From: Rahnella bruchi
Lineage (GTDB): Bacteria; Pseudomonadota; Gammaproteobacteria; Enterobacterales; Enterobacteriaceae
Assembly: GCF_003614975.1 (NCBI RefSeq)
Contig: NZ_QZWI01000002.1
Location: 248,001-312,000 of the forward strand
Length of the DNA stretch: 64,000 nucleotides
Direction: 5' to 3'
Below the pieces are notes generated by a model. That model ran no database searches. It was not told where the DNA came from and saw nothing but the letters and a program-made list of their open reading frames with translations. Of this stretch, positions 49,293-52,220 are shown in pieces. Each line of letters opens with the position of its first letter. Within the stretch, counting starts at the first letter, position 1. Made by a program: the position numbers and the translations under genes.

Positions 49293-49471
49293 GGATGCGT
49301 CTCATCAACAGAAAGCGGACGGGCTTCATTTTCTAATAATACCGGGATACCGTCACGAACCGGATAAGCCAGGCTGTCCGCCTTACATACCAGTTCCTGT
49401 GATTCTTTATTAAAGTAGAGCTTACCGTTGCAGACAGGGCACGCAACGATTTCAAGTAAACGATGATCCAT
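49289..49471 (-). CDS. ycaR: YcaR, Trm112-like small zinc-ribbon-type protein
   Basis: 60-residue UPF0434/Trm112-family protein, same length as E. coli YcaR. CPVCNGKL (Cys11, Cys14) and Cys29 form the partial metal-binding knuckle, and RDGIPVLL is the family signature. Function unknown. The ATG at 49471 is preceded by a near-perfect GGGAGGAA. The frame is open upstream to 49540 but without homology. Coupled to kdsB by an ATGA overlap. Confidence 0.95.
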
Positions 49472-49655
49472 AAGTTCCTCCCGGAGGCGAATACACCGCG
49501 TTTTCAGTAAGGTGTAACGCAAAAAAACATTGGAAAACACGAGACAGCGGCCTGACAGGATAACATAACGCCTGTCACCCGTTAATCCTCAGTTCGCCTG
49601 CGGCGGCTTCAAAAAAGTTAATTCAATGTGACTAAAAAATTTCATCAGCGAGTGA

Positions 49656-49684
49656 TTGCGTTGGAGATTTAGTGGGAGTACAAT
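49656..49684 (+). promoter_or_regulatory. Promoter-like hexamers of the small unit
   Basis: TTGCGT (49656-49661), 17 bp, TACAAT (49679-49684). Transcription would begin near 49691, on top of the CRP box, giving a leader of about 42 nt before the 16-codon ORF. A second candidate -10, TAAAAT (49729-49734), lies downstream of the CRP box. Confidence 0.4.
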
Positions 49685-49689
49685 TTTTT

Positions 49690-49705
49690 TGTGATGCAAG
49701 TCACA
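49690..49705 (+). promoter_or_regulatory. Perfect CRP-binding site
   Basis: TGTGATGCAAGTCACA is the exact CRP consensus TGTGA-N6-TCACA. Its centre is about 42-43 bp before the start expected from TAAAAT (49729-49734), which is class II activation geometry. Alternatively it covers the start site of the TTGCGT/TACAAT promoter and would repress it. Binding is inferred. Confidence 0.8.
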
Positions 49706-49732
49706 TTATCAACCCCACAGAAGAGCACTAAA

Positions 49733-49783
49733 ATGAAAACCATTAACAAAATTATCGCAATGCTCGCTAACTTCAGTCACTAA
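49733..49783 (+). CDS. Candidate 16-residue small protein or sRNA body
   Basis: ATG at 49733 opens MKTINKIIAMLANFSH with TAA at 49781-49783. AGAAGAG (49719-49725) is a moderate ribosome site. The peptide is basic at the start with a short hydrophobic core, amphipathic if helical. An 8-bp inverted repeat ACTTCAGT/ACTGAAGT (about 49770-49792) spans the stop codon and a terminator follows. If transcription starts from TAAAAT (49729-49734), the start codon would be lost and the product would be an sRNA of roughly 100 nt. I recognise no homologue. Confidence 0.4.
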   Translation: MKTINKIIAMLANFSH

Positions 49784-49810
49784 TACTGAAGTCACACCTG
49801 CAATCATCGT

Positions 49811-49845
49811 GAAATAACGGCTGCCTGACGCAGCCGTTTCATTTT
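49811..49845 (+). terminator. Terminator of the small CRP-box unit
   Basis: AACGGCTGC, a CTGAC loop and GCAGCCGTT (49816-49838) followed by TCATTTT; outer GAAA/TTTC pairs extend the stem past a one-base bulge. Confidence 0.75.
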
Positions 49846-49879
49846 ACGGGATCCCACTTACAGAAGGGTATTTACGGCA

Positions 49880-51115
49880 TCAGACCTGCCAGTCAGTCCC
49901 CCATAGCGCCATAAGTGTTTCAGGCACATTTCCCGTCAATACCCTTTCAGCCCCCTGCCACTGCGCAAACCGCGTAATCGCACTGTGAACATCTTGCGCG
50001 CGACGAGCTGTCATAGCGACCTGTGGTTCAAGATGCAAACTTTTCACTTCCAGGATTTTCTCTTTGCGATGCATTTTGGCATCGACCCGGCCAATCAGTT
50101 CACCACGCTGTAATACCGGAAGCGTGAAATACCCGTACTGGCGTTTTGCTTCCGGCGTATAACATTCAATCCGGTATTCAAAATTAAACAGCACCGACGC
50201 GCGTTTGCGATCCCACACTACCGGATCAAAAGGTGAAAGCAGCGTGGTGACGGTTGATCTTATTCTTGATTCAGTCGCTTGTTGTAACAAAGAAAACTGT
50301 CGCTGATGAACGTAAAAAACACCTTCAAGCCCTGTCACTTCGACCGGTGTGATTTCCTCATCTGCCAGTAATTGTGCAATAACGGCGTTGATATTCACAC
50401 GCTTAAGGCGGTAATAGTCCGCCAGCCATTCCGGTTTGAAAATGCCGAGATACTGCGCCGAGCGTCGCAGCATCTGGAATTGTGCCACATCTTGTTTAAG
50501 AGTCTGACGGGCATCATCCCAACCTGGCATCACCCGTTCGGCCAGGTCGTAAACCCGGTGGAAATTGCGCCGTTCAGACACCATCAGTTTTCCCGAGGTG
50601 AACAACGTTTCCAGATGTTTTTTATGAGGTTTCCAGTCCCACCAGCCACTGGCAGATTTTTTATCTGCGGTGAAATCGGCAGAACGTACAGGACCGTTCT
50701 CTGCAATATGCCCCAGCAGCGCCTGAATATCGGATTCATGCTCATCAAACCAGGCCTGGGAAAACTTCCAGCCCATTCCTTGTGGATTCAGCATCCGGTG
50801 TCGCAGCAGTCCATAATCTTCGCTGGGAATAAAGCAGGCTTCATGCGCCCAGTACTCAAAAATTTTGCCAGCAGAGAGTGCTTCTTCGAGCCATTGTGGA
50901 GAATAACTACCCAGGCGACTGAACAAAACCAGATAAGGGCTGCGGGCCACCACGCTGATGGTATCGATTTGCAGCAATCCCATGTCACGGATGGTATCTA
51001 CCACATCAGCAGCAGACGGTTTTCGGGTAAGGGGTTTTAAGAGATTTTGCGCAGATAAATGCAGAGTGCGGGCTGAAGCGAGAGATATAACCGGGTGAGA
51101 CATATCGGTATCCAT
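49880..51115 (-). CDS. ycaQ: YcaQ interstrand-crosslink DNA glycosylase
   Basis: 411-residue member of the HTH_42 (AlkX/YcaQ) family. The catalytic QxD motif is Gln49-x-Asp51 in LLQIDTISVVARSPYLVLFSR, followed by three winged-helix units and the conserved LSPFDPVVWDRKRA. E. coli YcaQ (AlkX) unhooks nitrogen-mustard interstrand crosslinks. The start is either MDTDM (51115) or the internal Met at 51103; no ribosome site clearly decides. Conserved order with ycaR and kdsB, but separated from lpxK by two cold-shock genes not found here in E. coli K-12. Confidence 0.93.
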   Translation of the reverse strand: MDTDMSHPVISLASARTLHLSAQNLLKPLTRKPSAADVVDTIRDMGLLQIDTISVVARSPYLVLFSRLGSYSPQWLEEALSAGKIFEYWAHEACFIPSEDYGLLRHRMLNPQGMGWKFSQAWFDEHESDIQALLGHIAENGPVRSADFTADKKSASGWWDWKPHKKHLETLFTSGKLMVSERRNFHRVYDLAERVMPGWDDARQTLKQDVAQFQMLRRSAQYLGIFKPEWLADYYRLKRVNINAVIAQLLADEEITPVEVTGLEGVFYVHQRQFSLLQQATESRIRSTVTTLLSPFDPVVWDRKRASVLFNFEYRIECYTPEAKRQYGYFTLPVLQRGELIGRVDAKMHRKEKILEVKSLHLEPQVAMTARRAQDVHSAITRFAQWQGAERVLTGNVPETLMALWGTDWQV

Positions 51116-51198: not shown

Positions 51199-51411
51199 TC
51201 AGAATGCAATCACATCTGCCGCTGAGGGGCCATGTGCCACGCTGCGATAGGTTGTAAACTCTACTTTCTGACCCGCGCTGAGTGATTTATTTTTGGTATT
51301 GGCGATGGCAGTACGCTGAACATAAATTTCAGAAGTACCATCAAGCGGGCAAATAAAACCATAGCCTTTAGCCTGGTTGTACCATTTAACTAAACCCATT
51401 TTTAACATCAT
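51199..51411 (-). CDS. Divergent cold-shock-domain protein
   Basis: 70-residue single cold-shock domain: MMLKMGLVKWYNQAKGYGFI has the CspA-type start and an RNP1 variant (KGYGFI instead of KGFGFI). The RNP2 position reads IYVQRTAI, lacking the Phe/His of the usual VFVHFSAI. The C-terminus GPSAADVIAF is family-like. It resembles the divergent CspF/CspH group, so nucleic-acid binding may be altered. AAAGGA precedes the ATG at 51411. It lies downstream of a canonical csp gene on the same strand, separated by a terminator and about 250 bp. Confidence 0.85.
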   Translation of the reverse strand: MMLKMGLVKWYNQAKGYGFICPLDGTSEIYVQRTAIANTKNKSLSAGQKVEFTTYRSVAHGPSAADVIAF

Positions 51412-51577
51412 AATTTCTATCCTTTCTTTTGGGCATCCATGAACACACTTTTTTATTATTGTTCGGATGCGTTTGCCCATTTCTAAGTTATTTTTTTATA
51501 AAAAACCTCTAATGAGCGAATTATTTAACGATTATTTTTACTTTTTAAATTTTAAAACTTAACTGACTTCTTCACAC

Positions 51578-51660: not shown

Positions 51661-51870
51661 TCAGAGAGCGATAACGTTGGCAGCAGCCGGACCGCGCGGG
51701 CTGTCCTGAATGGTGTATTCTACACTCTGGCCTTCAGCCAGAGTTTTGAAGCCATCAGTTGCGATTGCAGAAAAATGTACGAATACATCTTTACCGCCAT
51801 CAGCTTGCTCAATAAAACCAAAACCTTTGCTTTCATTGAACCACTTAACCTGACCATTTTTCTTAGACAT
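51661..51870 (-). CDS. Canonical CspC/CspE-type cold-shock protein
   Basis: 69-residue cold-shock domain closest to E. coli CspE/Csp[21 protein letters not shown] (RNP1), [10 protein letters not shown] (RNP2), [12 protein letters not shown] and a [10 protein letters not shown] end. It acts as an RNA chaperone and transcription antiterminator by family knowledge. The ATG at 51870 follows AAGG at longer spacing; the open frame to 51936 is leader sequence. Its genomic position differs from cspC and cspE of E. coli, so no symbol is given. Confidence 0.93.
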
Positions 51871-52220
51871 ATTTATAACCTTATTACGAAATATAAAATC
51901 CTGCCATTCGGCAATGTTGGCCAATAGTTCAGACAATTACTTATGGGGAGGACTTAGAAGGTTCGTCTTGGAAGCGGAATCATCGGGAAAGAGATAACGT
52001 CTGGGAGGAACTGCTTTACTCTACACTCATACATAAATAGCGCTGCAACACAGGCTGCACGCATTTACTCATAAGTACTGCCTGATAGCAAGCCACCTTA
52101 CGCGATTATTTTCAATAAAAGGGTGATTTTTTAATTTAAACCTTTAAAATCAATCACCTTGAAATTATATATTTACGTAAACTTTAAATCAGAATGTGAA
52201 TTTAATCTGAAAACTTGGGT
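51871..52220 (-). other. Long leader region of the csp gene and lpxK downstream region
   Basis: 350 bp without a gene. Directly before the csp start lies a long, structured leader candidate on the minus strand, typical of cold-shock genes; I did not find a clear cold box or promoter. Nearer lpxK, GGTGATT and AATCACC (about 52116-52160) can pair around an AT-rich loop and may end lpxK transcription. Confidence 0.4.

Follow-up and report, generated by a model that had tools for sequence, protein, structure and literature searches.

A conserved CRP-box-linked microprotein gene between ycaR and ycaQ of Rahnella and its predicted repression by CRP

Introduction

Between ycaR and ycaQ of Rahnella bruchi lies a gap of 408 bp, and the question raised by this locus is whether the gap encodes a small protein, a regulatory RNA, or both, and in which direction CRP would control it. 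A first-pass annotation of the window, the 64-kb stretch of DNA analyzed here, had placed in this gap a compact transcription unit with a promoter, a perfect CRP box, a ribosome site, a 16-codon ORF, a hairpin over the stop codon, and a terminator. The product was described as an unrecognised cAMP-responsive regulator or small protein, and was left as either a peptide or a CRP-activated sRNA.

Results

Layout of the unit

Direct reading of the window placed the gap at 49472-49879, in agreement with the annotated size, and located the promoter hexamers, CRP box, ribosome site, ORF, stop hairpin, and terminator at their annotated positions. The features are:

49656-49661, + strand: -35 element TTGCGT (direct reading); TTGCGT or TTGCGC in 13 aligned Rahnella sequences.
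49679-49684, + strand: -10 element TACAAT, with a 17-bp spacer to the -35 (direct reading).
49690-49705, + strand: CRP box TGTGATGCAAGTCACA, a perfect TGTGA-N6-TCACA over the predicted start (about +1 to +16).
49719-49725, + strand: Shine-Dalgarno-like AGAAGAG (direct reading); similar words in all 14 Rahnella members.
49729-49734, + strand: TAAAAT, a second -10 candidate at class II distance from the CRP box (direct reading).
49733-49783, + strand: 16-codon ORF MKTINKIIAMLANFSH, stop included (direct reading, conservation, pN/pS).
49770-49792, + strand: stop-codon hairpin with 8-bp arms, 49770-49777 and 49785-49792 (direct reading, folding).
49796-49813, + strand: 3′ UTR segment ACCTGCAATCATCGTGAA; 17 of its 18 columns do not vary among 13 Rahnella sequences.
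49816-49845, + strand: intrinsic terminator, stem 49816-49838 followed by a T-rich tail (terminator scan).

The perfect TGTGA-N6-TCACA motif occurs once in the 64-kb window, versus 0.08 occurrences expected from shuffles. Folded whole, the RNA from 49690 to 49845 had a z-score of -3.7, and equal folding was reached in 1 of 200 shuffles. The TTGCGT/TACAAT pair was absent from the output of a promoter scan whose cut-off was 9 of 12, and a search of Rfam with 49300-50100 returned 0 matches up to an E value of 10. Outside the gap, two adjacent minus-strand genes at 51199-51480 and 51661-51936, listed with 93 and 91 codons from starts that may be set too far upstream, were read as cold-shock-like.

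Conservation in Rahnella and the nearest genus

Conservation in close relatives had been set as a test of the annotated unit. BLAST of the gap against 59 genomes gave matches in 16, made up of 14 Rahnella genomes, one further genus, and a genome (G014) whose match was confined to the ycaQ part. The box and the 16-codon ORF were kept in all 14 Rahnella genomes, the commonest form of the ORF being MKTINKIIAMFANFSH. The sequence from the other genus is syntenic, and kept the box, an ORF (MKRINKIIALFANFSA), an inverted repeat recognized by reading, and little else. Both half sites of the CRP box were invariant in all 15 of these sequences. Within Rahnella the terminator stem was nearly invariant (13 sequences), and more variation was found in the leader between the box and the ribosome site and in the DNA past the terminator.

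A microprotein family at four loci

A DNA model, R1, was built from 15 sequences running from promoter to stop codon, the -10 region included. R1 matched 101 of 392 genomes of the taxonomic family at E ≤ 1e-5 and 186 of 392 at E ≤ 0.05, where the weak matches are partly chance. Of the loci fetched after this search (L028-L111), 74 of 84 had both box and peptide as judged by script. The ten failing this rule were two with a box and a GTG start (L066, L071), one with an imperfect box (L107), one with a peptide and no box (L086), two azuC homologues (L108, L111), and four with neither box nor peptide (L087, L101, L102, L110).

An independent scan of named genomes employed the coding pattern alone, without CRP box or promoter, and yielded at least 119 stretches. 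Among the matches listed, 111 of 119 carried a CRP box 38-58 nt upstream of the ATG (one mismatch allowed), and 91 of these boxes were perfect; shuffled leaders carried a box at that spacing in 3 of 2220 cases. The box-bearing ORFs among these listed matches had either 16 codons (52) or 23 codons (59). The eight listed matches without a box (L127, L132, L137, L182, L190, L205, L212, L226) were six longer ORFs of 54 to at least 133 codons and two of 27 and 22 codons, and the five with a known source came from Polaribacter (four) and Bacteroidales (one). Genera represented among the 80 named matches listed include Rahnella, Yersinia, Serratia, Hafnia, Pectobacterium, Dickeya, Brenneria, Sodalis, Citrobacter, Enterobacter, Kosakonia, Kluyvera, Raoultella, and Leclercia. 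A narrow coding pattern run on 394 genomes of the order, most of them outside the family, gave only two matches, both in Rahnella.

Pooling of the DNA-model and coding-scan sets gave at least 199 loci with box and peptide, at least 153 of them unique. The 153 unique members analyzed below were selected by box plus peptide (126 perfect boxes, 27 with one mismatch), so the presence of the box in them is not itself evidence; 88 were obtained via DNA, most by the model that includes the -10 region, and 65 via the coding-pattern scan. These microproteins are mostly 16 or 23 aa long with the core MKx-h-[NH]-KIIA-[ML]-F, and are encoded at the following sites, where many of the neighboring gene names (for example ychJ and purU) are readings of translations rather than annotation:

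Locus A: ycaR/ycaQ; 56 unique members.
Locus B: downstream of atpC, followed by glmU or a pectate-lyase-like gene; 71 unique members.
Locus C: beside a GhxP-like permease gene, usually with an LpxL-like gene; 20 unique members.
Other members: 6 unique, including a Yersinia site beside purU/ychJ.

The GTG-start loci L066 and L071 are locus A members, encoding VIKRLHKIIALFANFSH and VIKRLHKIIALFANYSQ, respectively, with the box intact. Four Yersinia loci (L083, L084, L092, L178) carry an additional copy (such as MKLINKVIAMFEKMSVSFGTING), and the neighbors of the L092 and L178 copies were read as ychJ and purU. Two genomes (G406 and G286) have both the Yersinia-type further copy and a ycaR/ycaQ copy. 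A record assigned to Chryseobacterium sp. 18061 (L189, CACSKA010000004.1) also contains an atpD/atpC/glmU locus of enterobacterial type that encodes the microprotein and carries two CRP boxes; the record is probably contaminated or mislabelled.

In E. coli K-12 the ycaQ-ycaR gap measures 51 bp, and reading of the atpC-glmU gap revealed no such ORF. Single representatives of loci A, B, and C gave no match in an E. coli collection, and the locus A representative gave none among plasmids. The members run against NCBIfam and Pfam matched no family. A literature search found no such family: four peptide strings occurred in none of the papers searched, and four others only in four papers that are unrelated by title (on termites, trees, wasps, and orchids). 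A microprotein catalogue (PMC11188072) may hold some members. The family is apparently undescribed and its gene of a known kind. What had been annotated as an unrecognised regulator or small protein can now be specified as a conserved, CRP-box-linked peptide that is absent from the family libraries searched.

The ORF is under coding selection

In Rahnella, pN/pS of the ORF was 0.10 (11 unique ORFs), and variable sites at the first, second, and third codon positions numbered 2, 1, and 8 of 15 each. The first-pass annotation had proposed asking whether substitutions preserve codons or base pairs, and it is codons that are preserved. Pairwise counts, which are non-independent, gave pN/pS values of 0.18 for locus A, 0.20 for the 23-mers of locus B, and 0.32 both for the 16-mers of locus B and for locus C; with DNA-found loci alone the values were 0.18, 0.20, 0.31, and 0.37, respectively. 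The two wrong frames of locus A and of the locus B 23-mers gave 1.28-1.53. One shifted frame of the locus B 16-mers and of locus C gave 0.73 and 0.82, all shifted frames together spanning 0.73-2.57. These patterns strongly support the peptide as the conserved, coding product of the unit, and we regard the microprotein family as almost certainly real and coding.

For residues 1-14 of the window peptide the hydrophobic moment is 0.56, a value reached by 15 of 2000 shuffles, and the peptide is predicted to form a short, positively charged amphipathic helix. The window copy has L at position 11, where F is found in 52 of 53 locus A 16-mers.

Promoter and box geometry suggest repression

We scored as a sigma-70-like promoter any TAnnnT ending 1-8 nt before the box, with a -35 matching at least 3 of 6 positions at a spacing of 16-18 bp. 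By this rule a promoter was present in 153 of the 153 unique members listed, versus 21 expected from shuffles, and 65 of these members were obtained by the coding-pattern scan, in which no promoter is specified. Box-aligned logos, read by eye, placed TTGATC-17-TAGACT in locus B and TTGACC-17-TATTCT in locus C at the same coordinates. The start predicted from the consensus, some 7 nt downstream of the -10, lies within the box or at its edge. Immediately upstream of the -35, a second box was found in locus B (53/71), locus C (20/20), and the other members (6/6), and in none of the 56 locus A members.

A CRP site over the transcription start usually represses. Since the box begins within 1-8 nt of the promoter's end and thereby overlies the predicted start, the most likely action of CRP-cAMP here is repression. 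On this geometry we consider repression of the unit by CRP to be probable; the gene and its repression taken jointly are likely as well, a shade less so.

RNA features and a possible second function

Some features of the predicted transcript bear on whether it has a function beyond encoding the peptide. It is conceivable, and would leave CRP repression unchanged, that the RNA has a dual function like AzuCR or VcdRP, making the peptide and also pairing with mRNAs through ACCTGCAATCATCGTGAA; we hold this to be a credible minority reading. In keeping with it, the segment is nearly invariant in Rahnella and largely free of pairing in the centroid fold (some of it is paired in the minimum-energy fold), CACCTGC follows the stop by no more than 80 nt in 24 of 56 locus A members, and the E. 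coli azuC leader has AACACCTG. However, CACCTGC is not common to loci B (1/71) and C (0/20). A search of the window's own genome with the complement of 49795-49813 returned the segment itself and four matches with three mismatches, versus one for the control, and no clear pairing target emerged. Of the two annotated alternatives, peptide or sRNA, coding has stood, and an additional RNA role in Rahnella is possible.

The shorter word CACCTG recurs in azuC leaders (L112, 3486-3493, reverse strand; L108 and L111), in Rahnella (window 49795-49801), and in some Yersinia 3′ UTRs, which could reflect a shared pairing word or chance.

Terminator-like structures within 140 nt after the stop were found in 40 of 55 locus A members, versus 0.4 expected from shuffles, and in 37 of 70 at locus B, 0 of 20 at locus C, and 1 of 6 of the others. 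Not all members are thus compact units. A stem of at least 6 bp at the stop codon occurred in 8 of 14 Rahnella members versus 4 of 42 other locus A members, and in 21 of 71 at locus B, where the mean stem length was close to that of shuffles. The stop-codon hairpin was rejected as a general element and is a feature of Rahnella only.

Alternatives to repression at the box

Activation by CRP would require the box, or in loci B and C the box further upstream, to recruit RNA polymerase. The first-pass annotation had put forward one form of this, a class II start just inside the ORF giving a non-coding sRNA of about 100 nt, and the TAAAAT on which it relied is indeed present at 49729-49734 at class II distance from the box. 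TAnnnT is kept at that position in just 5 of the 14 Rahnella members and, among the remaining unique members, in 6 of 139, whereas the promoter upstream of the box is present in 153 of 153 and the ORF is under coding selection, and the class II sRNA was abandoned. The upstream boxes of loci B and C could in principle activate, but locus A has none. Activation overall appears improbable.

Another reading has the CRP-like palindrome act not as a DNA site but as an RNA hairpin that affects mRNA stability. The palindrome would form the extreme 5′ end of the RNA and does fold as a stem. The half-site letters are, however, invariant in 15 of 15 sequences with no covariation; a C opens the box in all 20 unique locus C members and breaks the outermost pair; and the second copy that loci B and C carry ahead of the promoter lies outside the RNA. 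We judge this reading very unlikely. That a chance ORF happens to lie beside a stray CRP site is suggested by the shortness of sixteen codons and the lack of a match in the annotation libraries searched, but is refuted by conservation across many genera and four loci, the coding signature, and the narrow box-to-ATG spacing, and deserves practically no weight.

Discussion

The preferred reading is a microprotein gene repressed by CRP. In this model the sigma-70 promoter at 49656-49684 would produce a transcript of about 155 nt, running from the CRP box to the terminator at 49816-49845, and translation from 49733 would yield MKTINKIIAMLANFSH. CRP-cAMP bound to 49690-49705 would cover the start and block transcription. 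At low cAMP, on a rich or preferred carbon source, the peptide would be made, and rising cAMP would turn it off. The peptide may then sit at the inner membrane or bind a peripheral enzyme and tune carbon metabolism, like AzuC in E. coli. By analogy, such an AzuC-like role is tentatively put at somewhat under an even chance.

More speculatively, and in our estimate unlikely, the family and AzuC could belong to one enterobacterial superfamily of 16-29-aa amphipathic microproteins at five or more sites, each behind a CRP repressor site, with falling cAMP releasing related helices onto a single membrane-bound metabolic target such as GlpD. If true, this superfamily would constitute a peptide arm of catabolite control. 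A family spanning four syntenic sites and many genera, under coding selection and with a nearly fixed arrangement of CRP box and promoter, would make glucose-responsive microproteins an old and widespread level of carbon control, one missed because genes of 16-23 codons are rarely annotated. The comparative sets are now at hand for finding the binding partner of an AzuC-type helix.

To our knowledge, few CRP-controlled RNAs encoding small proteins are known, and each has been described as a separate case. Two features of such RNAs, a conserved putative CRP site at the promoter and a short ORF under coding selection, are present here. AzuCR, Spot 42, and VcdRP are described as CRP-repressed RNAs coding for small proteins (PMC8672173). 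Spot 42, reported as a CRP-repressed RNA (PMC8672173), encodes SpfP, a 15-aa protein reported to bind CRP (PMC11188072). It is a different RNA from the one considered here, and the 49300-50100 region has no Rfam match. As far as we know, the SpfP peptide is unrelated to the family peptide.

The small protein VcdP of the CRP-repressed VcdRP RNA of Vibrio cholerae is reported to act on central metabolism, and the CRP site of VcdRP lies upstream of the -35 and also represses (PMC8672173). VcdRP is likened to the present unit by control and role rather than peptide sequence; VcdP has 29 aa, is from Vibrio, and has its CRP site upstream of the -35. Ysr206 of Yersinia pseudotuberculosis, with more than one predicted CRP site, was reportedly detected only in a crp mutant (Nuss 2015, PMC4376681). 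This is the behavior predicted for the Yersinia purU/ychJ member, and the likeness is one of behavior rather than position.

The closest comparison is with AzuC, encoded by AzuCR (IsrB), which is reported as CRP-repressed and dual-function, with AzuC acting on GlpD (PMC8672173). AzuC shares with the family a short basic N-terminal helix, an MKL start, and the words KI[IL] and MF.N, and two CRP-like sites precede the E. coli azuC ATG. Relative to the ATG these sites lie 98 and 68 nt upstream and the annotated RNA start lies at -42, so the sites do not cover the start. AzuC is also longer, at 28 aa, with a C-terminal half that is absent from the family, and its locus is ftnB-yecJ-azuC-yecR, whereas the classified family members lie at four other sites. 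The NCBIfam AzuC model NF033642, which scores AzuC itself at 75.9 bits, returned 0 families for two 23-aa members and the 30-aa extended window ORF. R1 did not find E. coli azuC as a unit, giving 14.3 bits on the wrong strand and 8.7 on the right one. The PSSM score of AzuC was far below that of members and was reached by 97 of 5000 shuffles and by 1 of 1381 window ATG starts, this one scoring 39.4, which is member-like and was taken to be the window ORF itself. Profile-profile comparison of AzuC with the family gave an E value of 0.0028 and a probability of 11%, and R1, though built without AzuC, found the azuC homologues L108 and L111 in two other genomes. The similarity to AzuC is weak, though higher than the background used. 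AzuC is the known protein nearest in kind to the microproteins described here, and homology between them is suggestive only.
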